Shown: in pieces, positions 610 through 49,038 of the stretch
How positions within the stretch are numbered: the stretch's first letter is position 1
Layout of the letters: each line of letters begins with the position of its first letter
Position numbers and translations under genes: made by a program
NCBI RefSeq assembly: GCF_018687715.1
Contig: NC_056758.1
Coordinates: 30,174,967 to 30,238,966 of the forward strand
From: Carya illinoinensis
Taxonomy: Eukaryota > Streptophyta > Magnoliopsida > Fagales > Juglandaceae
DNA: 64,000 nt
Reading direction: 5' to 3'
Notes under the pieces: generated by a model
Databases searched by the model: none
What the model saw: only the letters and a program-made list of their open reading frames with translations
What the model was told of the DNA's origin: nothing

Positions 610-3350
610 GATGACAGGATTACACTCGCTATGCCCAACTAATTAGAATAGGTTCTGAGGGATTCAGACCAAAAAGGATAGAGTCCAGGCTCTTATTTGG
701 CATGTATTCATAAACCAGCATTTTCTCTTCTCCCTCAATACTAGGGGTGTAATCGGTTCGGTTCGGTCCGATTTTGTACAAAATCTAGGACCGAACCGGT
801 AGGTACCGGTTTTGTATTTTTTAAAACCGATTACGCACCGATTTTCATCCTAAACTGGTATTCCGGTTTTACCGGTTTTCGATCCGGTTTGGCCTAGTTT
901 TCCGGTTTTAATAAAATATAAATTTTTTTATAAAAATTATGTTTAAAAAAAAAAACTGATTTAAAAACTTCTATTTATCATTTACAAAAATTTGCTTTGC
1001 AAAAAAAATCTGCTATGTAAAAAAATTCTGATATAAAAAATCTGTTTTATAAAAAAAATCTGTTATATAAACAAAATTCGCTATATAAAAAACTGCTATA
1101 AAACAAAAAATAAAATAAGAAATCTAGTGTAAAAAAAAAAATCTGCTATAATCCTATATTAGACGATTAGTATTAGTATATATATATTAGTATTAGTTAT
1201 AGCTATATATATTAGACAATATAATAGTATTAATATTAGACTATTAGTATAGTTAGTATTAGTTTTGATGATTTAGTATAACTATACTAATATGAGTATA
1301 ACTATAATCTATATTAGAATATTAGTATTAGTATATGTGTGATTATTTTTTATGTGATTAAAAATTATATATAATATAAAATATATTATATATAGTATTA
1401 ATATATAAATAGTACCGGTCCGGTCCAAAATTAACCAAAACCGAAACCGGACCGGTTCCGGCCGGTTTTTCATTTATGAAAACCAGTTCCTTCCCGAACC
1501 GGTCCAAAATCGGCACAACCGGTCCGGTCTGGTTTGGTACAGGCCGATTTTCTGGTTTGCCGGTTATTTTTTACACCCCTACTCGATACAACAACCGAGA
1601 AGCTTTACTAGATTTCGGTGCTGAAGTTTGGCTATCAGTTTCACTTCATTTCTGAACTCATCCGGTCCTTGTCCAGAGATTCTCGAAAGCCTCTTCATAG
1701 CAACTTCTTGTCCATCTGCTAGTACACCCTGAAAGTTCAAATTTATCAAAAGACTGCAAAAAAATATGAGTGAAACAGCCAAACAGGTGCTTATTTCTTT
1801 GATACTTATTGTCTATTGCATAGCAAATTTACCCTGTATACGGGTCCAAAACCACCTTCTCCGAGCTTGTTGGTGACTGAAAAACCATCAGTGGCTCTAG
1901 ATATTATGGATAGGTCCAACATTGGAAGCTCCATGTCTTCTTCTTGGACTTCCCTGTTTTGACCAATTAATACACTTTTCGCTGTTTCCCCTCATGAAAA
2001 AAAGTAAAATTCATAGTGAGCTTCACTTTAGAATACGAGATGGACATAAAATTCTCACGTCATCAGTCTACTTAATTTTACCTTTTTAAGCTTTTCCTGC
2101 TGCAAATGCGATAGCTCACTAAAAGCATCCCAAAAACAACTGTGACGGATGCCCCAACTATCGCTGCCGTCCTCTTGTTACGACCAACCTCCATCTCTTC
2201 AAATTAGATTTATGAGCAGAAATGCAAATTCTGTTAATCGTCACTTGAAACTAAAACAAAATTCAGAAAGAAAGGAAGACGATGGAAATGATAATTGAAC
2301 TTGATAAGGTATCAAAATACTTACTGACGAAGTTCTATCATGCCAAGAAAAAATAGAGAAAGAAGACCTTTTTCTATTACAAAACAAAGGCCATACCTAG
2401 TTCGGAAGCAGGCATTCGAACATATAGATTCTGTCAACCGGTTGGAAACTGCCTAATATCTAGAAGATCACCATACCAGAGGGTGCAGCCACTGCCTCTT
2501 CCTCTGATATCTGAATTTGTATAAGCCATACAGGAACAATTACTCAAGCATTTAGTCCTGCATTCCTCAAGATTCATACTCTCGTTTACCCAGGAATTTG
2601 TAGTCTCCGGCAATTTTAGCCCAACAAATTTAATAAACCCATGTTTATCTTTATCTTGACAGCTTAGTTGAGTAATGCGCACACATCCTTGAGACCAGTC
2701 CTCTGGGTTCCATCTTTCTTGTGATTTAGACTGGAATCCTTTTAAACATTGACAGACTGGTGACTCACCAATGATACAATTTCCATAGGCGCCACAAAGG
2801 TTGTAGTCATCACAGTTGTCTCTTGGCACATATGAATACGGGCTCCAAGTTGAGGTTGCAGCGATCCATATATAGCGTTCACGGGAATATTTAGTTTGGT
2901 TCATAACGATTCTTGATATTATCGATTTATTTGGAAGATGGTATTCGTAGTATACCTCATTCTCATTGTTGACGAAACTGAACTCGAAAACCGGGTTGCC
3001 TCTCAACTCCGGAGCATCGCTGAAACGAAGGCCATTCCAAGGGCCACTCCTGTAGTACTTCTCAGAGCCCTTCCACATGACTGCTTTAGGGTAATTAGTA
3101 CGTTCTATTCCCCAGGTAAAATCTTCAGGAGATGGGTCATCCCAGTTCTTCCAAGCGGATAAACGCCGGTCAAGACCAGTCTTGAAGTCCCACCCAAACT
3201 TCATCCCTGGTAACAGTGTATCTAAAGGATTATCAAAGCTTTGCCATAGATAATTCTCTGAATTTCCTTCTTCCCTATCTCTCAGTACTAAATTTCCATT
3301 ATCTAAAAGCTGCAATATTGGACTCGAAGCCTCTTTTGTTGAATGTGCTG
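610..3350 (-). pseudogene. G-type lectin S-receptor-like Ser/Thr kinase, truncated and interrupted
   Basis: This is the remnant of a plasma-membrane receptor kinase of the S-locus/G-type lectin family. Reading down the minus strand, the first exon (about 3350-2397) holds the end of the bulb lectin (LLDNGNLVLRD), the S-locus glycoprotein domain (SGPWNGLRFS), an EGF-like Cys cluster (CDDYNLCGAYGNC) and a PAN domain (CLSNCSCMAYTN). A juxtamembrane/TM exon follows (about 2196-2082, AAIVGASVTVVFGMLLVSY). The next exon (about 1985-1833) has the glycine loop GEGGFGPVY. A kinase exon (about 1735-1582) has the VAMK lysine and ends at LLGCCIE; it resumes at 741 with [19 protein letters not shown]. It breaks off near 610, so the catalytic HRD and DFG motifs are absent. 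The lectin N-terminus is also missing, replaced by AT-rich repeat. A stop at 2431-2433 replaces a residue just before the usual QNLYVRM segment. Donor and acceptor sites are still recognisable. Confidence 0.88.
742..1581. mobile_element. hAT-type MITE inserted in the kinase exon
   Basis: A non-coding element of 840 bp. Its termini are TAGGGGTGTAA at 742 and the complementary TTACACCCCTA ending at 1581. The flanks carry an 8-bp duplication with one mismatch: CTCAATAC (734-741) and CTCGATAC (1582-1589). Removing the element joins the two halves of the lectin-kinase exon in frame (GCCIE to GEEKML). Both outer parts are rich in ACCGGT/CCGGTT motifs and the core is AT-rich. The 8-bp duplication and the TAGGGGTG end are what is known for the hAT superfamily. 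Confidence 0.88.
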
Positions 3351-3543
3351 CTTATTGTATTAATAGTTATACTAATATTATATAGTGCATATTAATAGTT
3401 ATATTTATACTATATCATTATATATTATAATATAATATAATATATCATTATATTATATATTATAATATATCATTATAGTCTATAATACAATTATAATATA
3501 CTACAATATATTATCACTATAGTATTATATACTATATTATATA
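3351..3543. repeat. AT-rich core of a second hAT MITE, left of the copia insertion
   Basis: Almost pure A/T sequence with repeated TATTATA and ACTATA phrases, directly abutting the broken lectin-kinase exon. It resembles the AT-rich core of the MITE at 742-1581. It is probably the left remainder of the copy whose right end is at 12038-12230. No left terminus is visible, so this is an inference. Confidence 0.4.
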
Positions 3544-4820
3544 TGTTGCCCAGATGACTAACACAAGAGGGGGGTGAATTGAGTTGTATTAAAAAAATAA
3601 CAATTATAAATCAAATATATAATATAAAATATAAACAAAATATGAAATAGCAATAAATATAAAGAGTAAGGGTAAGAGAAAAGCAAACTCAATATGTTAA
3701 CGAGGTTCGGCCCCACTGCCTACGTCCTCGCCTCAAGCTACCCCTTGAGGATTTTCAAATTCACTATTCAACCTCATTCAGGTGGAGATAGAAACCTATT
3801 ACACCTTTGAACAACACCGCTACAAAGGATCCGTGTAGAACACCCTTTACACTTGCAATCATCTTACACGTGGTGATTCAACTATTCCTCGTGTAGAATA
3901 ATTTCTACACGCACAAGGGTTATACACACCATTTTTCTGATACAAGAGCTGATAGTGGGTAGGTTATCAGAAAACACTTCTCAATGAGTGAAATAAGAAT
4001 AATACAGCGCAAACTATATCTCTCAAAATGAACAAGGATTAAAGTTCAATGCTTAGAGAAGAGAGAATGAAAGTTTTGAATGAATGTTGTATGCTCTTGG
4101 TGTTGTGAATGTGAAGCTCTCAAATGATCTATTTATACACATATGAGATTTCATATTCAAATTTAAAAAGATTCATATGTCAAAAACAATATCATTCACT
4201 TTTTTAAAAAAATCAAACCTAATATTTTACTTTTGACATATGACAAAAGGAGCACACTTTCCTTTTCAAAAAATTCAAACCTAATCTTTTACTTTTTGTA
4301 TATGACAAAAGAAGCACACTTTACTTTTCAAATTTTTCAAACAAAACCATCTACCTTTTGTATAAGTTTAAAAAAGTATCAATCACTTTTGAAAATATTC
4401 AAATAAAACATGCACATGTGAAAGATGACAATCAATCATCTTTAATATTTTCAAAGTTCAACCCTTTAATCAAGGCATGCACATGTAAAAGATGACAATC
4501 AATCATCTTTCAAAATTTTTAAATTTAATTTTCAAAAAATATTCATGCACATGTGGAAAATGTATTTTAATGTTTTATGATAAAATATTAATTTTGAACA
4601 TTAATCCTAATTTCTAATTTTGAAGAGATTTACAACATTACTCTATAACTTTAATGTGAACTTGTTCCCTTCTTGCTCATGCTTCTTTCCTTGATGTGCT
4701 TGACTTCATTGTGTAGACAACTTGAACTTGAGACTTCTTTATTCTTTGAATTCATTTGTTATCATCAAAATTCATGTGTAGATATATAATTACACAAACC
4801 TTGAAACCTTGGGTTCAACA
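3544..4820 (-). repeat. 3' LTR of the Sirevirus-like element
   Basis: 1277 bp, bounded by TGTTGCCCAG and GGGTTCAACA. A minus-strand TATAAATAG lies at 4129-4137. A near-perfect palindrome, CGTGTAGAA-TAA-TTTCTACACG, lies at 3890-3911, like the inverted motifs known in Sirevirus LTRs. A unit of about 60 bp containing GACAAAAG(G/A)AGCACACTTT occurs twice near 4225-4345. Confidence 0.9.
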
Positions 4821-13789: not shown

Positions 13790-14178
13790 ACCTCACAATC
13801 TCGCGCTCATCCTACCACTCACAGTGTCGCTTCTAGAGGCAACATCTTCCAACCAGCGCCATTCTCCCTCAATCCAGCCCCCAAATATTAATAACTTTCA
13901 TTCATCTCATATATTTTCGGATTAAGAGGTTATTTTTACTGCTTTTTGAAGAGTATTTTCAAGGTTTTGGGCATAACGTACGGTCTCACAATCTTGCGCT
14001 CATCCCACCACTCACAGTGTCGCTCCCAGAGGCAATATCTTCCAACCAGTGCCATTCTCCCTTAATCCAGCCCCCAAATATTAATAGTTTTCATTTATCT
14101 CGTATATTTTTGGATTAAGAGGTTATTTTTATTGCTTTTTGAAGAGTATTTTCAAGGTTTTGGGCATAACGTACGGTC
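13790..14178. repeat. Tandem duplication, about 194-bp unit
   Basis: Two adjacent copies with few differences. Each begins near CACAATCT(C/T)GCGCTCATCC and ends with GGGCATAACGTACGGTCTC. They sit between the left palindrome cluster and the transposase remnant. Confidence 0.85.
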
Positions 14179-14479
14179 TCTTGCAATTTTATCTCTCAAA
14201 ACCAGGTATATATGCTATCTTAATCTCATCTTATTTTGAATATGAGTATTTTCGTTTACTGTACTGAGTTCGTGATATTGTGTATTTTTGTTTAATGTAA
14301 TGAGTTGGTCATTGTTTGGATTTTCGAAGGTTGAAGATGACTGGAATTTGGAATAAACCTGTTCGAATGGTACACGGTTACCGTTCGAACGGGTTTAGTA
14401 CGTTCGAACACTTATTAACACCGTTTGAACGTTATGTTGGTCAGTGTTAAAGTGTTAATTAGAAATTATAATAGTACTA

Positions 14480-17128: not shown

Positions 17129-17446
17129 ATGTAAATTTTGGTGACTTTTGGAGTTAGCATGCAAAACCCTTAAGTTAGGGATAAAATTGTCATTTTTTCA
17201 CATGTAAAAGGTAAAATAGAAATTTTACTCTTAAGTTAGTATTTTTCCATATTTCAAATTATTAATGATTTAGTTCTAACTTTTAGAATGTAAATTTTGG
17301 TGACTTTTGGAGTTAGCATGCAAAACCCTTAAGTTATGGATAAAATTATCATTTTTTCACATGTAAAAGGTAAAATAGAAATTTTACTCTTAAGTTAGTA
17401 TTTTTCCATATTTCAAATTATTAATGATTTAGTTCTAATTTTTAGA
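17129..17446. repeat. 159-bp tandem duplication inside the solo LTR
   Basis: Two consecutive copies starting TGTAAATTTTGGTGACTTTT at 17130 and 17289, nearly identical. Confidence 0.85.
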
Positions 17447-17818
17447 ATCACTAATTACAATTCCTCGTGATCGCGCTTGAGCTTTTATAAGAAACGCAGA
17501 GATCGAGGTAAGTTAGCTTTTAACTTATTAGCAATCTACTATATATGTGTGTTAAGTAAAAAAACTACATTGTATGTATGTGTGTTATCATATATGTCAT
17601 GTCATGTTCACTGTTGCAAGTATGTCATGTTAAGTATGTTTCCGTTACATGTGATATCATATATGAAATATTGTGTGTTATGTGTTTAAGTCATGTCACG
17701 ATATAACCCTATCTCAAGTTGGTCATGTCTTTCAAGTTATGTTCAAATCATGTTATGTTACGTCAGGACTTCTGTCCTTTCGTATTCTAGTCACGTTTCA
17801 TCTTGAGTTACATTTAGT

Positions 17819-21669: not shown

Positions 21670-24067
21670 ATGGCGGTCATCACAGAAAGATTTCAAGCCA
21701 TTCTCGCCCTAGTATTAATAGCTTTGCTCTCTTTTATGGCCGAAGCTTCACGTCATGGCCCTGTCGAAGGTGATTCCGGAGTTTTCGATGTTGCATCCTA
21801 CGGTGCAAAGGCAGATGGTGAGAGCGACGATGCCATGGTGAGTTCAAACTTCGAAACGCACGTACAACTTTATTATTACTATTATTATGATTTACAACGT
21901 ATATAAATCATGCACGCACAAGGCTTTGTGCTTGACTCTGAAAGTTTGGCTTGGGTTTCATGAGATATTGGTGCCTGCCAAGGAACTGTGATCATTAAAA
22001 TGGGGTGACATTTTCTAAAACTAAAAATCCTCTATAATCCCAATATAAATATCTATTTTTAACACGTACGTACGCAGTACCATTTATATGACGCTTTATT
22101 CCTTTGAGCGCGTCCAAATGATTTTTTTCAGTGAAGGCATAGCGACAGCTCTACAAAGAAGATCCAATATGATCAGTTTATAGACGACACATGCTTGTAC
22201 ATGTAGGAACATTATGAATCTCAGTAAACCGGCATTAGCCTCTATATCATAAGCAGTTTTTGTCATTTCAAAAATCATACTCAAGCCCTCTAGATTTGTA
22301 ATCATTTTTTTCATTGTGACGGCCAATTAAAAGTACCATTATATTTTGCAGCCCAATTCAAAATCTGAATTGTTTTGTGACCTCTACTGTTTTGTGAATT
22401 ATATGATTCAGGCATTTGTGAAGGCATGGGTTGCAGCATGTAAATCTAGTGGTGGCTCGGCTAAGCTTGCCATTCCTACAGGGACATATATGACAGGGCC
22501 AGTCGTGTTTCAAGGGCCATGCAAAGGCTCCATGACCGTTGAAGTTCAAGGAACTATTAAAGCAACAACTGATGTTAGTCAATACAGTTCTCCTGAATGG
22601 TTTTCCTTCGAAAACATCGATGGTTTGATGGTCAATGGCGGAGGAACTTTCGATGGTCAAGGCGCGGCTGTGTGGAAGTACAATGACTGTAAAGATAGCT
22701 CAGACTGTCAACTTCTCCCGGCCGTAAGCTACCAAAACCATTTAGATTTTCTTATATATATTTGAACAGGGTGCTGCTTATATATATATATATATATATA
22801 TGATTTTGTTATGTTTGATGCATGCTGCAGTCAATTAAATTCACGTGGGTGAAAAACGCCGTAGTTCATGAGATAACTTCCCTGAATAGCAAAGCGTTCC
22901 ACATGCACGTTGTTGACTGCGACAACTTTAAAGCCCACGACCTCACTATAACTGCGCCAGGTGATAGCCCGAACACGGATGGCATGCATATCAGCAGGTC
23001 TAATCACGTCAGTATATCTGACAGCCAAATTGGAACCGGTGATGATTGCATTTCCATTGGACAAGGGGCAACTCAAGTCTCCATTCAAAACATTGTTTGT
23101 GGCCCCGGACATGGCATAAGGTATTCAAAATCTCATTCCAAGTATATAATGCAGAATTATCATAAGTTTTATTGCAGATGCTTTACATATAAATTGTAGA
23201 AAGCTTAACGTTTTCCTAAAATTACAAGCATCTAGTAATTAACGTCAGTTCCTATACAGATCATATGGCTGCAGAAACAATTATTAATACTGCATGTCTG
23301 CATTGGTCTTCTTAGGATATTCATGATTAATTACTTGATTTCACAGTTTTTTTCATCATCTTTTTAAATTTCTGGATCAACAACGGATAATTCAACAGCT
23401 AGGTATTGAGATTTATCACGACATTAATCTAAATGCTTGTGTTAATAGTGCGTTTTTCTTTTGGTTTTCTATCGGCCTGCAGTGTTGGCAGTCTTGGCAA
23501 ATATAAGGACGAGAAGGATGTGAGTGGGATTTCCGTGACTGGTTGCACACTGAAAGGCACCACGAACGGTGTGAGGATCAAAACCTGGCCGGGCTCACCT
23601 CCAAGCCAAGCCTCGAGCATTGCTTTTGAGGACATAACTATGGATTCGGTTAAAAACCCCATTGTTATTGATCAGAACTACGGTTCCCACAAAAGTCGGG
23701 TAATAGATACATCTTATAATTACTACTGCAAACTCAATCTCTCCTTTAATTTGAAAAGACGAAAAAAGAATCAAATAATGATGATTTGGATTATAATATA
23801 TAATTCGTTTTCATTTTGCGCGCATTGCAGCCATCCCAAGTGAAGATTAGCAACGTCCGTTACACGAACATAAAGGGCACCTCGTTGTCACCTATGGCAG
23901 TGTCAATAGTGTGCAGCTCAGATGTGCCGTGCACGGGGATTGAGATGACCGACATCGATTTGCAAGTCGAGGGAAAGAGTTCAAAATCGGACTCCGTTTC
24001 ATCCTCATGCTCCAATGCAAAGATTACCTTCGGGGGAAAACAGAATCCCCCAGCTTGTGATGTTTAG
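21670..24067 (+). CDS. Polygalacturonase (GH28, exopolygalacturonase-like)
   Basis: It hydrolyses alpha-1,4 galacturonan in pectin and should act in the cell wall. Five exons join in phase: 21670-21837, 22412-22723, 22831-23120, 23483-23699 and 23831-24067 (1224 bp, 407 residues). All introns are GT-AG. The N-terminus is a signal peptide (hydrophobic ILALVLIALLSFMAEA). All four GH28 motifs are present: SPNTDGMH, GTGDDCISIG, GPGHGIS (created across the third splice) and RIKTWPG, so the catalytic Asp residues and His are kept. The start is the first ATG after the TATA box and directly precedes the signal peptide. Length and sequence suit the pollen-type exo-PG clade; that expression is an inference. 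Oddity: the usual Cys after the IDQNY segment is Gly (IDQNYGSHKSR). An AATAAA-like signal follows near 24229. Confidence 0.93.
22779..22801. repeat. (TA)n microsatellite in polygalacturonase intron 2
   Basis: About eleven TA units just before the branch/acceptor region of the intron. Confidence 0.9.
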
Positions 24068-39973: not shown

Positions 39974-42900
39974 CAAAGTTTTGAAATCCGTTCCGTTCCG
40001 GCTGGAATTGCCAGAATTTTCCGTTCCGGAACACTAGCTGAAACCAGAACTCTATATATTTCGTTCTGCTACAAATTCTGGTTGTTTCGTTGTGTTCCGG
40101 TCTATTCCGGCCGGAATACACTTTCCAGTCTGAAATTTAACAAACAGTGGCATTTTTGTAATTAAGATTAATATCATGGCATTTTCGTAATTTACATTTT
40201 TTCTTCATTTTTCCTTTGGTTTTCTTTTTTCCCCGGTTTCTTACTTTCTTTCTTTTGTTCTTCTCCGTGCGCCGTTCTGAAGTCTAAACTTCTGAGTCTA
40301 TCATCTCCCGATTCTCATTTCTCCCCCCTTCGCGTTTCAATTTTCAAGTTTCAACTCAGTTTCTCTTTCTCTTCCATTTCTATTTTCTTCCTTTCCCGTT
40401 CTTCTCATTTCCGGCCAGAACTCCAGATCTGATCTCCTCAGGAGCACTCCGACGACGCCACCTCCCTGTTGCAGCCGGCAGCTCTGTTTGTGAGTCTTGG
40501 GCCTAGCAGCAACGACGCCGTCGCCGTCGCCCATAGCCGGCAGCTCTGGCTTTTGGCCTCTGATTTCGTCGGTTTGATTTTCCCTCTGCCATTCCGATTC
40601 CCGATTCCTAGATCTAGATCGATCTGTGCAAGTATACCGTATTTCCCTTCCGATTTCATCAAATGATGCTAACTATATGTGCATAAAAAGGATATGATTG
40701 AAGATAAAAAGGATATAATTAAATATAATTTCTTAATATTGAGTTATGAGACAAATAAGTGCTTAAATATGTGTGCGTTTAAATATCAATACAAAAACGA
40801 TAAATCACATATTGATTATGTTGAGGTGTGTAGTACTGAAGATTTCTTTATAACATTTCTCAATCTTAATAATACATTTGATGATATCTGGCATCCCAAC
40901 TAGACCTCATAAAGCTCGATCATGTTGAATATCATACATATGTATGTGAATATAATCAACATGACTATTTTTAGTTATTTTTAATTATCCAAATTACTAT
41001 TTCAGAAACATATATCGATATTGATCATTGGATTCGGACCATATAATATCTGATCTATTGAATGAATATTATTTAAAAGATCTTGAAATTCTCTCTTATT
41101 TTCGTTTAAGTCTTTCCAAATATATGTGCATTTCTAAATGAGTTGATTTTTTTTTTTCATAATGTAGGGGTATATAAATTATAAATGTCTAGTTGTCAAT
41201 CAAATAGTGCTACCTCTACGGCATTTGCTCCTGCTAGATCAGAGGATCCAGCATGGTCCCATGCACATGTAGTGCCAGGAGTAAGAAATAGTACTCAATG
41301 TCTTTATTGTAGCAAAATCATTAGAGGTGGCGGAGTCACGAGGTTGAAGCATCATCTAGGTGGGATTTCAGGTGATGTAGAAGCATGTAAAAAAGTCTCT
41401 GATGATATAAAATGGCAAATGAAAGAGTTGGTCAATGAAATGAAAAAAAAAAAAAACAAAGAGAAGAAAAGAAAACTAAGCTTAGAAATTGGATGTAGAA
41501 GCCCTGTACATTTAACATATGATGATGTTGATGTTGGTGATGATGAGTATAAGGGAGGGAGTCAAGGACACGTTCATGATTCAAAGGGGAAGGGGAAGGG
41601 GAAGGGGAAGGAGAAAGTAGGTGGAAAATCAACGGGGCCATTTAGCAGATTTTTTGCTCCAAGAACAAGTCCTGGCTCTCAACCTTCTATTAAGAGTGCT
41701 ATGTGTTCAAATGAAATGATTGACAAAGCAAAAATGGCTATAGCAAATTGGTGGTATGATGCTAATTTACCTTTCAATACATCTCAATCTAAGTTTTATC
41801 AACCAGCTATAGATGTTATAGCTGCCATCGGGCCAGGATTCAAGGGTCCTTCTTTACATGAGTTGAGAGAAAATTTGTTGAAGAATTCTGTGACTGAGGT
41901 TCGAAATTATCTCTTAGATGTTAAAACATCTTGGAGGGATAGTGGTTGTTCACTAATGGCAGATGGTTAGACAAATCAGAGGCAACAACCAATAATTAAC
42001 TTTTTGGTTTATTGCCCAAAAGGTACAATGTTTTTGAAGCCTATTGATACATCAGGCCTTAGAAAAGATGCTGAAACATTATTTAAAATTTTTGATGAAG
42101 TTGTTCAAGAAGTTGGGGTGGAGAATATTGTGCAATTCATAATAGACAATGATGCGAGTTATAAGGCTACAGGAAAAAAGTTACAGTAAAAGTATGGCTC
42201 TTTCTTTTGGTCCCCTTGTGCAGCTCATTGTATAGATTTGATGTTAGAGAATTTTTGTGATCCCAGACATTTTCCTATTATTGATGAAACTATAAAGAAG
42301 GTAAGGAAGATAACGAAATTCATTTATAACCATACTTGGGTTTTGGCTTTGATGAGAAAGGACTTCACCAAAGGTCATGATTTATGTCGCCCTGCAGTCA
42401 CAAGGTTTGCTACAAATTTTTTAAGTATCCAATGCTTACTGTTGTTTAAGAAAGAGTTTCGACAAATGTTCACTTGTGATAAGTGAATTGTATCAAGTTA
42501 TTCTAAAAGCAACATAGGGAAGGAGATAGCTGAGAATGTTCTAGAAGATATAGAGTTTTAGCCTCAATGTCAGTTTATTGTAACAATCAGCGAGCCTTTG
42601 GTTCGAGTACTACGACTTGTCGATGGGGATGAGAAGCCTGCAATGGGATACTTGTATAATGCAATGGAGAAAGCCAAAGAAAATATAAAAGCAAGATTGA
42701 AGAACAAAATTTCTGCATTTATGCCATTCATCAGGGTCATTGATGCTAGGTGGGAGAAGCAACTTCATAGTCCATTACATGCAGCAAGTTGTCTTCTTAA
42801 TCCTGAAATTTACTTTAACCCTTGCTTTAAAAGTAAAAATGATTTTTCTAGAGGGTTTATGACTTGCGTTTTAAAGATGGAACTTGATATTGATAAGTAA

Positions 42901-44242: not shown

Positions 44243-44551
44243 TATCGAACCTGTACCTTATTCTTCCAACTTTGATGATATTGTCCAGCCCATTGACAAT
44301 ATATTAGATAGATCAAATTATTATATGTGGGCTCAAACATGGGATTTTTTTATGTAATTGTAAATTTTGGCACTATTTCTTGGGAGATATTTTTGCCCCT
44401 AAGCAACAAGAGGGCAAAAGTATTGAAATCTTTGCAAGCAACCTTGAAGATTGGCATAGTGTGCACTATAAGATCCTTTCTTGGTTTATCAACACTAACA
44501 TTTTTTTGATTCATAGTTTGCTCCCTATGCAGTAATATAATTGTACTCTTG
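44243..44551 (+). pseudogene. Copia Gag, first part (nested element)
   Basis: It reads DDIVQPIDNILDRSNYYMWAQT, the usual copia Gag opening, then accumulates stops. It is cut by the CACTA element at 44555 and resumes at 47825. Confidence 0.65.
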
Positions 44552-44931
44552 ATACACTACAAAAAAAAAACACTTTTTCCCGCGAGTTTTGGTCGCCGGA
44601 AATAATCTTGTCAAAAATACATCCATTCTGTAATCGTAGGTCGTTTTAATAACTTGTTACGGCGAGAAAGGTTTGCCACAATTTCGCTGGCCCATTTAAA
44701 TGACTTATTATCACGAATTCTAGTCCCCATATTAACTTTTCTAAATACCCTTATTACTTCTTAGCCCTTTCCGTCACTCTCGCCCCTCCGTCTCTCTCCC
44801 TCCCTCTATCTCTGTCTCTCTAGGGATTTAACATTCTCACGATATTTCCAAACGCTGCCACCGATGCCGTCGTCTCGCTGCCATCCGTCTTCTCCTCCTC
44901 GTCAATCAGTTTCTCTAACTTTAGCTATTAT

Positions 44932-44964
<33 letters not shown>
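44932..44964. repeat. (CT)n microsatellite
   Basis: An uninterrupted run of about 16 CT units inside the CACTA element. Confidence 0.95.
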
Positions 44965-44965
<1 letters not shown>

Positions 44966-45470
44966 ACTCTCGCTTGGATTCACCAAGGTTACTCTCTTTC
45001 TCTCTCTTTCTATATGTGAGCTTACAGCTTTCCGATTTTTGTAGTTTTTATCTTAGATGTTTATTCTTTTTCTTTGTTTTTGTGTAGTTCGATTTGTTTT
45101 TGAGTACCACTCTAGTCTAAGCTTCGCAGTGCACTGATGCTGCATTTGGCTTGGAAATTTAATTAATCTAAGAATCTAATTTCAAGGTATTACATCTCAT
45201 GGATTTTCAACTCCACAAAAATATAACTCCATCACTCGGATCGGTTGGAATTCACTTGGACTTATGAATTAGAGAAACAAATTGATTGGTTATTCCTCTC
45301 CATTCATATATCTATTTTCCCAATTTCAGTCTTGATTAGTTTACAAGATTGAATGGCCAATTCTCCTCTGGACTATAGGGATAATTGAATATATTTTTTC
45401 TTATATTGCAGCTCTCATTTTTCAAAAGAAAAAAAAAATACTACAAACTAATGAGAACTAAGGGACTAAC

Positions 45471-45924
45471 CTTCTTTAGCAAGGCTTTTACACGGTCATA
45501 TGCTTCTCTTAAGAGTTTCACCACCTACACAACCAATGCAAGAAATTTAAATAAACTAAACGTATGTCTACCACTATTAATAAATTACAAGAACCCCAGA
45601 TTCCACAAACATACTTCAACATCAATACATGATTGCATTTCTGAACTTGGCTGCTCATTGATGTGAACTGGCCCAATCGTGTCACTCATCCCACAATTTG
45701 ATACCTTAAATAGGAAAGATGCACTCAATAAGCAAGTTAAATAGGAAATTCTTTTGTTTAAAGTACACAGAAGCTGTTAACTTTTCTGCACCTTCAACAG
45801 TAGCTTTAATGGTAGCAATATTAACCAAGTAGTTGTCCTGAAGCTAATCCTGTGCAGCCCCATTGAATCCCTGAGTACCACGAGCAATTGCCTTTAAATC
45901 TATCTCATCAGCCAATGGTTTATC
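45471..45924 (-). pseudogene. FTSH11: Captured FtsH11-type ATP-dependent metalloprotease fragment
   Basis: Three pieces of a chloroplast/mitochondrial AAA+ M41 protease lie in transcript order on the minus strand. Exon 45924-45772 reads DKPLADEIDLKAIARGTQGF to VNIATIKATVEGAEKLTAS, the end of the AAA module. Exon 45704-45615 reads VSNCGMSDTIGPVHI to QSCIDVE. Exon 45524-45471 reads VVKLLREAYDRVKALLKK. The CAG acceptor, GTATGT and GTTAGT donors and exon phases are intact. The exons with the HExxH zinc site are missing, so no protease activity is possible. In the first exon a 29-32-bp foreign insert replaces the codons for the conserved ADLANL segment and brings a stop. The gene symbol names the likely source, not a working gene. 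Confidence 0.85.
45826..45857. repeat. 32-bp exact repeat, copy A
   Basis: It starts CAAGTAGTTGTCCTG and ends TAATCCTGTGCAG. It is identical to 46541-46572 and interrupts the FtsH11 exon. Confidence 0.92.
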
Positions 45925-46479
45925 CTGTAGATAATATTTGAGCTAGATACTGTAGCTAGACTTGACAACTGATTTTTTATTCTCAAGATTTAGAGATTGA
46001 TATGGCCACAAAAACAAAAAAATGCAGACCAAATTTCTAATGCAGAAAGATTTTGTCTGAAGCAGAAAAACATTTCCTTAAGACAATAAGAGTCCTTAGC
46101 TTGAATGGGCCATACGATGCTCACAAGAGGATGGGACAGTGACAGTGTGAGTTTTGAGATTTCTTGAATAAAAGCTTTCTGCTGTCTAAAGTTGCATGCT
46201 TTTCTTTGACTCTTTTTTAACAATTTTCTCACTTGGGATTTTGTTAGTGCATGTACACTGACAAGTAGAACAGGTACTAAAGTCCTGTGCTAAGAGGTAA
46301 GAACATTTGCATTCAAGTGATTGGAAATTAAATAATTATTGAAAAAGTTCAATAATGATCTATGCAATGGTGTTGATGATCAGGAAGTGGATAACTTTCA
46401 ATCCTCCTGAACATAAGTCTTGTTGATGTCCTCTTTTTTGTTGCTGTTCTTATCGCTTCGTTTTCTGCCTTACCTATAC

Positions 46480-46645
46480 CTAAATTGTCATTTCTTTTGT
46501 TGCAAGGATTTAGTTGTTCCAATGAGATGGCCAATTGGCTCAAGTAGTTGTCCTGAAGCTAATCCTGTGCAGTCATTGTTAGAACCGTTAGCTCCACTCA
46601 GTCTGAGGGGTGATCCAGAAACATCCTTTCCAACTTATTGGTAAA
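46480..46645 (+). other. Possible further captured fragment, unidentified
   Basis: The plus strand is open here and includes the second copy of the 32-bp repeat (46541-46572). It reads PEANPVQSLLEPLAPLSLRG to a stop. The flow is protein-like, but I do not recognise a family. Confidence 0.25.
46541..46572. repeat. 32-bp exact repeat, copy B
   Basis: Identical to 45826-45857, same orientation, 715 bp away. The flanks on both sides differ. Confidence 0.92.
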
Positions 46646-46988
46646 AAGTTCAAAATTTTTAGTAATTATATATAGTCAATTTGTCTTACTTCAGAAGAGA
46701 ATATCTTTATGCAAGTTTAAAAGTAGATAGCATTGGAGTTTTTCTTTATTGTAGATATTCATTATATTGTCAAGTTGGAGTACTACCTGAAATTGCAATG
46801 AGGACTAATAATAAACATTGTCAACATGTTCTGTTTTGCTTTAGGTGTGTAGTATGTAGATGATGAGTAACATAAATTTTGGCATTTAAAAATATTCCAT
46901 ACAGATTGAAGAAAAAATAAACATTGAAATCTTCCTTCAAAAAAGGTTCTAATAGCAATTTTCTTTTGCAATTATTTTTCTGGTGCAG

Positions 46989-47249
46989 ATTGTAGCTTAC
47001 TTAATAGTCACATCCGAGGTAGCAGTGTTGCAGATACTGTACTTAGCTTACAATGGTGACAGAGAAATCTCATGGAGTGAAGCATGTAGTTCCTACATAA
47101 GGTTTTGCAGTAGAATGAAGCTAGCTTTAGCTCTCCATGCCTTGACTCTTTGGTGTCTCATTGTTCTCGCTGTAATCTCAGCTTATAGGACTTTTATCAT
47201 GTTGCCTCCTTCCCTCCCTTCTAAAGAGGTAGAAGAAGAAATAGCTTAA
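46989..47249 (+). pseudogene. Captured last exon of a CASP-like membrane protein
   Basis: An open exon of 86 codons plus TAA after a clear acceptor (GGTGCAG, 46982-46988). It contains two membrane segments ([20 protein letters not shown] and [20 protein letters not shown]) joined by [20 protein letters not shown]. The conserved Cys pair and polar loop are typical of CASP-like (CASPL) four-helix proteins of the plasma membrane. It ends in an acidic tail ([11 protein letters not shown]). Earlier exons are not recognisable, so it is a fragment inside the CACTA element. The subfamily is uncertain. Confidence 0.75.
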
Positions 47250-47824
47250 TACTTCTTTGAGTGGTTTTCTTAAGCACTTGGCTCTTAGAATAGCTGGATT
47301 TCCCATGAATACTTGTATATATCTATATGTTTCTTTGTAATGAAATAATGAGTATGATATTAAGAAACAATACCAAACTGATCTCAAGTTGTTGAAGAAA
47401 TAATAAACAAAATCATTATTGTATTGTGATATTCAGAATATGGAGGGAATGAAATCCATAAAATTTCAATTAATTATAGAATGCTTGTGAGAAAAAGACA
47501 CATTTTATCATTTGATATGAGTGGATAAAAATCAATATAATTAAAAAAAGTGAAAAAAAAAATCGTAAAAAAAAATATTATGAATAGAGGTCATCAGATG
47601 TATTTGTGGCGAATTTTATACTTTTTGCAGCGATTAAATGTTGCATGAAATAATAAAATATTTCTGTCAATTCCTCCTATAGCTGGAAACAATCTTTCTT
47701 GGCTCAAAATTTCTGGCCACTTTCGGACAATTAATTTTAGCCAGGAATAATTATTTGCGACGAAAGATTGTCTATTTGTGGCGACTTATGTTCGCCGGAA
47801 ATGAGCTTGTTTCTTGTAGTGATA

Positions 47825-48332
47825 CTTCGTCGTAGTTTCAACTTGAGACTAAATTTTATCATATGTGATAAGAATCGAGTCAGTATATTTTTTATTTCTA
47901 TTCTTAAGTTAATAATCTTTGAGAACAACTATCTGCTGCATATTCTCAATTTAAATGTTCAAGAGATATTGAACTATTTGCGTCCTATAGTGATTGTCAA
48001 AACTTTATGCACTTCATGATGACCCTTCGTGAGGACTTCAAGTCTATGCAAGCCTTTCTCTTGCAATGCACACTACTTCCAACTCTTGAAATTGTTGTTG
48101 CTGAACTCATTTATGAAGAAAATCGACGATCTACAATGAAGTCAAAATCTCTAAATTTTGTTGTAGGCACTACCTCCAGGGTGTCTTCTAAGTTTTCTTT
48201 TACCAATGTCTCGAGATCTTCACCATCCACATTGTTAACCAAAACTGCTTTATACAAATATTGCAAATGCCTAAGCAATTCTATCTCGAATGTCTCAAAC
48301 TTCATCACAAGAATCAAGCAAAGACCTTTGTC
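47825..48332 (+). pseudogene. Copia Gag, second part (nested element)
   Basis: It continues the copia Gag after the CACTA element: HFMMTLREDFKSMQAFLL and PTLEIVVAELIYEENRRSTM, a typical Gag C-terminal motif. It is cut at 48333 by a hAT MITE. Confidence 0.75.
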
Positions 48333-49038
48333 TAGAGGTGTAATCTGTTAGGTCCTATTTGGTTTGGTTCGGTATGAGGTCATCAACCAAAAATTTTGGT
48401 CTATCATTTTTTCAAACTGAATTGGACCAACTGCCCCTAAAGATTGAATTGTTAGCTATCAGTTTGGTCGGTCCGATTTGGTCTATATGTGCTAGGGATA
48501 TTTTTTCTTCTTTTCATTTTTTGGTAGATAAATTAATACAAAAAATTAATTAAATTAGTAAAATCAAAATTCAGCAAGATCTTTAATGTGGATTATGTAG
48601 CTAACTCATTAAAAAAAGAAATTAATTATAATTATATTCAGGATATTAATTGCTACTAACTTAGTACTTTAGTAGAGTATGTATCTACATATAACAACAA
48701 ATATTATCATATAATTCATCGTATAATATATTAGTTAATTTATAGCATATATTATTTTATGTTTTATATGATCAATAATGATAGATTAGAGAAAATTATA
48801 TAATCAACTTATATAACTACTATATAAATATTATATTATATATTTAAAATTTTATATGTAAGTGATTCGGTAAATTTTGGTCTGATTCGGTAAAAAAAAA
48901 AAAAAAAAAAAAAAGAAAACCACACCCTAGAATCGAACCAAAAACCAAATTTTGGAGACACCATGGACCAAGACCGTGTAGAGGTGAATTTGAACTGGTC
49001 AATTTTTCTGTGTTCGGATTGAAAAATTCTCACCCCTA
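48333..49038. mobile_element. hAT-type MITE, 706 bp
   Basis: The ends are TAGAGGTGTAATC and ATTCTCACCCCTA, with a perfect 8-bp duplication CCTTTGTC (48325-48332, 49039-49046). TTTGGT/TTCGGT-rich arms and an AT-rich core show it is related to the MITE at 742-1581. An A-run of about 24 bp lies at 48892-48915. Non-coding. Confidence 0.9.

Follow-up and report, generated by a model that had tools for sequence, protein, structure and literature searches.

The window analysed here comprises 64,000 nucleotides of the pecan genome (Carya illinoinensis, assembly GCF_018687715.1, contig NC_056758.1; C7:30174967-30238966), and the feature under study is a complete CACTA element of 3267 bp at window positions 44555-47821. 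The element starts with CACTACAA at 44555 and finishes with TTGTAGTG at 47821, and ATA abuts each end; both termini and the 3-bp duplication had been claimed by an earlier interpretation of the letters alone (hereafter the sequence-only reading) and proved exact. When reverse-complemented, the right end (CACTACAAGAAAC..) is similar to the left end. The subterminal motif TCGCCGGAAA occurs in the window at positions 44593 and 47792 only, and GTGGCGA is found on its plus strand at 47606 and 47778 only. About 110 bp just inside the left terminus are missing from the window copy; they are kept in the other copies whose left end is intact. Between the ends lie four blocks, namely a fragment of an FtsH11-type gene, a block termed D2, a block from a helicase locus (D3) and the 3' part of a gene for a CASP-like protein (CASPL), as listed in Table 1. 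Non-autonomous CACTA elements lack a transposase of their own, and a profile scan of 13 open reading frames (ORFs) of the element, a few further ORFs lying outside it, detected no transposase domain.

Table 1. The element, its blocks and its insertion site (window positions)
Feature	Position	Strand	Parent or basis
Insertion site, decayed copia-like gag	44300-48351 (flanks 44300-44554, 47825-48351)	+	frame continuous with stops
Left target-site duplication ATA	44552-44554		sequence
CACTA 5' end: CACTACAA terminus, GTCGCCGGAAA subterminal motif, CT-rich leader	44555-45106	+	
Captured FtsH11-type fragment with internal losses	45107-46099	-	C6:1357091-1359831; genome match
Intact FtsH exons	45471-45524, 45615-45704	-	
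Junction of ~1.15 kb parent loss that takes in the M41 HESGH exon	45769-45771	-	
Truncated FtsH exon	~45775-45924	-	
Templated filler, 32 bp, 3-bp CAG overlap at right	45826-45857	+	identical to 46541-46572 (helicase exon)
Block D2	46098-46478		related stretches on C1, C3, C8, C2 and C15 cluster
Block D3	46475-46847	+	C1:48085075-48085448; 93% identity
Unmatched 22 bp between D3 and CASPL	46848-46869		
Captured 3' part of CASP-like 2D1 gene	46870-47430	+	C12:29987328-29987888; 92%
Last CASPL exon with acceptor and stop	46989-47249	+	
CACTA 3' end: subterminal GGCGAC and TTCGCCGGAAA motifs, TTGTAGTG terminus	47431-47821	+	
Right target-site duplication ATA	47822-47824		sequence

A search of the assembly, which holds 674,387,116 bases in 17 contigs, brought the number of copies studied to nine; the lists of copies and matches are lower bounds. 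They fall into subfamily A with five copies (the window copy on C7 and those on C11, C10:3.82 Mb, C13 and C5) and subfamily B with four (C9, C3, C12 and C10:20.75 Mb). Both the CACTA start and the TAGTG finish are present in 8 of the nine, the C5 copy ending in TTATAGTG, and the 3-bp target-site duplication that marks CACTA (En/Spm) elements was likewise found in 8 of the nine. In subfamily A the duplications are ATA (window), CAC (C11), TAA (C10:3.82 Mb) and GGG (C5), the left end of the C13 copy being damaged, and in subfamily B they are ACT (C9), TAA (C3), ATA (C12) and ACA (C10:20.75 Mb). The sequence-only reading had taken the locus for one mobile unit and proposed a BLASTN search for further copies with the same two ends; eight further copies exist in the host assembly, seven of them carrying both ends with matching 3-bp duplications, and the claim is upheld. 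For the C9 insertion, a related empty site with a single ACT is found at C3:52.55 Mb. More distant elements at C10:35.98, C9:39.07 and C15:37.70 Mb share the part from CASPL to the 3' end at 77-83%; the 3' terminus was located in the relatives at C10:35.98 and C9:39.07 Mb, and yet other elements match by one end only.

The element interrupts a frame which we take, by its likeness to gag sequences, to be a copia gag. Removal of the element and one ATA restores a single frame with scattered stops (..EDWHSVHYKILSWFINT..YNCTLDTSS..FQLETKFYHM..EQLSAAYSQFKCSRDIELFASY..), in which, once joined, a Pfam scan found no domain. Both flanks are matched in all seven copia-like copies compared (L035-L041), with the left flank rearranged in L038, and the right flank has 35 other genome matches, a few being pieces of one place. 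The joined flanks (60+60 bases) match each of the seven, and among the matches listed the alignment runs gap-free across the join in five (L039, L040, L036, L038 and L041). Since copia-like copies align ungapped across the joined flanks, the insertion is real and the cargo is foreign to the site.

The FtsH block matches its C6 parent in pieces at 93.5-96% identity. Pfam profiles detected the M41 peptidase (E 8.7e-5) and the AAA lid (E 0.0079) in the window pieces, both below the gathering score, as against E 6.7e-31 for M41 in an exon of the parent; in the PDB, one piece matched YME1 (E 0.0014) and the other matched Cdc48 (best) and FtsH chains, the AAA fold being common to both. FtsH11 is its presumed name. 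The exon with the HESGH motif is absent from the window copy, and in their central part the C11, C13 and C5 copies show no match to the parental stretch that contains it. At the equivalent of window 45700-45769, these three copies carry several hundred bases without a match in the FtsH parent or, at that point, in the window element. The CASPL exon is recognized by PF04535 (E 1.4e-12) and is 84% identical to a full-length Juglans protein, its best protein matches being from Carya illinoinensis and Juglans. In a tree of 66 CASP-like exon sequences, built on few columns, the window exon groups with the pecan protein P0001 at a support of 99/76, which is below the star of the tool. The parent locus on C12 also has the upstream exons (P0002 residues 1-188 in four pieces).

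These results bear on most of what the sequence-only reading had said of the cargo. Its plus-strand final CASP-like exon is confirmed by PF04535 and the Juglans protein, and the fuller parent genes that it advised looking for were located, FtsH on C6 and CASPL, with upstream exons, on C12. Its minus-strand FtsH11-type exons at 45471-45924 are real as judged from Pfam, PDB and the C6 parent; the span was too narrow, the true capture covering 45107-46099, and 32 bp of other origin, carrying an in-frame stop, interrupt the first FtsH piece. The splice borders described as intact hold for two FtsH exons and for the CASPL acceptor; the AG beside 45924 belongs, in the parent, to a Gln codon within an uninterrupted exon (..EHYLQDKPLAD..), hence is no acceptor. 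The capture of at least two loci in opposite orientation, FtsH on the minus and CASPL on the plus strand, stands, with D2 and D3 having been missed.

The D3 block contains an exon-like open stretch followed by a GT after 46640. At its parent locus on C1, AAA_11 and AAA_12 domains are found in ORFs upstream on the same strand, and from this position the D3 exon would be part of that SEN1-type helicase gene; the exon-like stretch itself (45 residues) gave no useful match in Pfam, PDB or protein searches. Part of D2 has 14 matches, each 82-137 bp long, clustered at C15:30.9-31.7 Mb.

The four blocks differ both in their distribution and in their divergence. CASPL occurs in every one of the nine copies and also in the more distant elements; D2 and D3 are shared by subfamilies A and B, and FtsH is found in subfamily A alone (5 of the nine copies). 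Kimura two-parameter distances to the parent are 7.0-7.8% for CASPL (mean 7.4, 9 copies), 5.5-6.3% for D3 (mean 5.9, 8 copies) and 1.7-3.5% for the pooled FtsH pieces (mean 2.8, 5 copies). D2, for which no exact source was found, lies 4.6-7.1% from the three relatives compared and cannot be closely placed in the order. As the ranking by divergence and the independent presence or absence across copies agree, they suggest that CASPL was captured first, followed by D3 and D2, and then by FtsH. The distances are to be taken as ranks, not dates, since the donor genes are under constraint and their introns are not. With three parents (on C6, C1 and C12) still in place, the captures are copies and not moves. 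The derivation of subfamily A from B by simple deletion was considered and is weakened, as A holds 73 bp more of D2 (q1544 vs q1617).

Host gene fragments without a transposase, parents kept in place and several copies with common termini and cargo are the marks of a Pack-CACTA element, and we place the probability at roughly 94% that the window element is one, i.e. a non-autonomous CACTA element whose interior has been replaced stepwise by copied host DNA and which would be moved in trans. In such a scheme, a CACTA transposase encoded elsewhere would act in trans to move the element; a broken or excised element would be repaired faultily by copying from another locus and rejoined, with short sequence matches or none at the joins; and repeated captures would replace the interior step by step with host DNA. 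The cargo would mostly be passenger DNA, at times transcribed and spliced.

The FtsH block holds a trace of copying. A 32-bp filler occupies the place of 130 bp of the FtsH parent and adds an in-frame stop to the FtsH frame. This 32-mer occurs natively at the helicase locus (L021) but not in the FtsH parent. The filler is present, with 0-1 mismatches, in each of the four copies where the site survives (window, C11, C13 and C5), and in the C10:3.82 Mb copy the filler stretch has been lost. The direction of copying was thus from the helicase block to the FtsH block, before the A copies spread. The element's own D3 and the host helicase locus are identical over the 32-mer, and either could have been the template. 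An inverted filler was rejected, both copies of the 32-mer running in the same direction in the element. Under a strict matching rule, the joins overlap by 3 bp at the right side of the filler, 2 bp between FtsH and D2 and 0 at the left side of the filler; the D2/D3 join overlaps by 4 bp against the B copy and 1 bp against L020/L021. Unmatched bases number 1 at a 478-bp FtsH loss, 11 between the 5' end and FtsH and 22 between D3 and CASPL; the 1.15-kb FtsH loss has 4 by the strict rule, with the BLAST pieces overlapping by 3 bp. Such a mixture would fit error-prone break repair with template switching, without proving it.

The strongest rival concerns the capture step only, and we rate it as a real contender somewhat short of even odds: two elements of the same family would lie on either side of a host fragment and, after losing their inner ends, move jointly. 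This fusion model has been proposed for Arabidopsis Pack-CACTA elements, with supporting maize and rice cases (PMC8903248). The youngest cargo (FtsH) does lie between the 5' end and the older cargo, which is the arrangement expected from fusion. However, BLAST found no element end in the stretches compared around the parents, of 9 kb for FtsH and 7 kb each for helicase and CASPL, though excision could erase such ends, and the helicase-derived filler suggests that repair copying took place at least once. With a confidence likewise below one half, the family might be a datable record of stepwise uptake, older cargo having been the template for the repair of newer cargo. If so, the family would more probably have been assembled by break repair with template switching than by fusion of adjacent insertions.

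Several points weigh against the stepwise Pack-CACTA interpretation or parts of it. The joins are mixed, some with 2-4 bp overlaps, some with none and some with 1-22 unmatched bases. Short FtsH pieces taken singly are 2.8-7.2% from the parent and one 59-bp piece is closer, by a single difference, to a second FtsH locus on C5, so that the FtsH distance is only rough. The genome search gave relatives of D2 but not its exact source or gene; because its C1 relative has next to it a CACTA-like 5' end, 75% like copy B, D2 may have been acquired via another element. Judging from the divergence of the 3' end and of D3 between subfamilies, the ends may in part have had a different history. No autonomous partner with these ends was found. 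CACTA transposase (PF02992) is itself abundant in the assembly, with 150 places scored of 2420 candidates and 150 of the 150 above the cut-off; none of these 150 (2270 candidates being unscored) lies within ~30 kb of the terminal matches when compared by eye, except for a different CACTA element nested in the C5 copy.

That nested element, of about 16 kb (C5:41621603-41637613; L012/L031/L032/L013), splits the C5 copy with a GTA duplication and holds an open tnp2 transposase ORF of 869 aa. Its score is common to many of the 150 PF02992 copies, which suggests a recent burst of that family.

The divergence between subfamilies A and B is 2.1-3.1% in D2, 2.5-3.7% in D3 and 4.4-5.8% in CASPL, and rises to 8.5-15.6% at the 5' end and 17.7-21.4% at the 3' end (window 47444-47821). 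In the 5' end, many transitions between close pairs are at CpG sites (10 of 15 for C11 and C13), as would suit decay by methylation, whereas in the 3' end 35 of 61 differences between C11 and C3 are transversions, which such decay does not explain. It is possible that 3' ends have been exchanged among related elements.

A further alternative, close to the antisense or chimeric transcripts proposed in the sequence-only reading, is that the element acts as a chimeric gene or as a source of regulatory antisense RNA against FtsH11 and CASPL. The FtsH block does run antisense to the element, and the CASPL part keeps its acceptor and, in the window, an open exon that has lost one codon; chimeric transcripts from a soybean CACTA element are on record (PMC1947982). 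A named pecan protein, P0001 (Carya I3760_09G166400), corresponds to the C9 copy and is a fusion, at GT/AG borders, of element sequence with the CASPL exon: the beginning of the protein maps to L014 3179-3257 (oriented, two frames), up to a GT, and is followed by the CASPL acceptor CAG/ATT. Three of the ten A-A pairs (C11, C13 and C5 among themselves) show a ratio of nonsynonymous to synonymous substitution (dN/dS) of 0.15-0.37 on 6-9 differences, the other seven giving 0.74-1.50. Against the parent, however, dN/dS is 0.74-1.10 in all nine copies, with 3-5 synonymous and 9-13 nonsynonymous differences; a frame-changing indel is present in the CASPL exon of all eight other copies (one extra base near the start in C11, C13 and C5), the FtsH frame contains a stop and a splice from helicase to CASPL would be out of phase. 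We consider a chimeric or antisense role highly unlikely on this evidence, and give as little credit to a selected function of the cargo, of which there is no sign, since the CASPL exon looks neutral against its parent. Coding selection on that exon was examined as a candidate and is unsupported for the same near-neutral ratio.

The fusion region of P0001 spans L014 oriented 3179-4179 (C9:40.07 Mb). Among the loci compared, C9 is the best fit for the pecan protein numbered 09G (P0001) and C12 for the one numbered 12G (P0067). The C9 copy has a 2-bp loss in its CASPL exon that is missing from P0001, which is therefore likely to derive from a different allele or assembly.

That native gene remnants should lie by chance between CACTA-like ends, for which nothing speaks beyond the presence of the exons and which the sequence-only reading had named as the finding that would overturn it, has next to no chance of being right, as the gag frame is unbroken at the empty site, eight other copies exist and the parents are on other chromosomes (C6 and C12).

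Gene pickup by DNA transposons is debated between repair-based copying and fusion of neighbouring insertions, and the pecan family offers a compact test case, with nine copies, three of four parents placed, a capture order, empty sites and one templated repair scar. In kind the element is ordinary, a Pack-CACTA; what sets it apart is the unusually full history of stepwise capture. Among the published titles listed on Carya illinoinensis and CACTA, no transposon study was found. The C9 copy also serves as an annotation warning, since its match to a named pecan protein means that transposon cargo has been counted as a gene. The maize hAT elements Ds2 and Ds-l4 make 8-bp duplications. They belong to another superfamily with different ends. 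They resemble the pecan element in that the interior is replaced by filler, sometimes gene fragments (PMC3260210). Closer is Tgm-Express1 of soybean, a CACTA element with five captured gene fragments, which like the pecan element carries several unrelated host fragments with introns kept and splice borders usable (PMC1947982); unlike it, the pecan family reveals the order of capture through nine copies in two subfamilies, is known here from DNA alone, and has its window copy in a decayed retrotransposon and not in a gene. The Pack-CACTA elements of Arabidopsis, maize and rice have the same CACTACAA termini and likewise combine cargo of two or more loci, and multi-locus cargo and stepwise insertions are reported for Pack-TYPE elements (PMC8903248); the pecan family differs in host and cargo, in the templated filler between blocks and in captures ordered by divergence. 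Animal Pack-TIR elements, for which gap filling and template switching are described (PMC8277862), show similar foreign fillers and often short-match joins, whereas the pecan element is a plant CACTA whose filler came from its own cargo or the parent of that cargo. A 2026 review also covers this kind of element (PMC13317346).

Elsewhere in the window, four direct-repeat pairs surround copia-like frames: 3544-4817/10700-12035 (85%), 26096-26434/30685-31024 (94%), 33174-33375/37797-37997 (96.5%) and 52424-52784/57273-57637 (94%). They are probably long terminal repeat retrotransposons of different ages. Two-unit tandem duplications occur at 13792-14180 (196 bp, 93%) and 17129-17448 (161 bp, 98%). 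Gene-like remains include an S-locus/lectin receptor fragment at 2434-3351 (minus strand), polygalacturonase (GH28) exons at 22331-23199 (plus strand) and, at 41185-41970 (plus strand), a BED zinc finger together with a weak match to DUF659, like those of hAT-type transposases.

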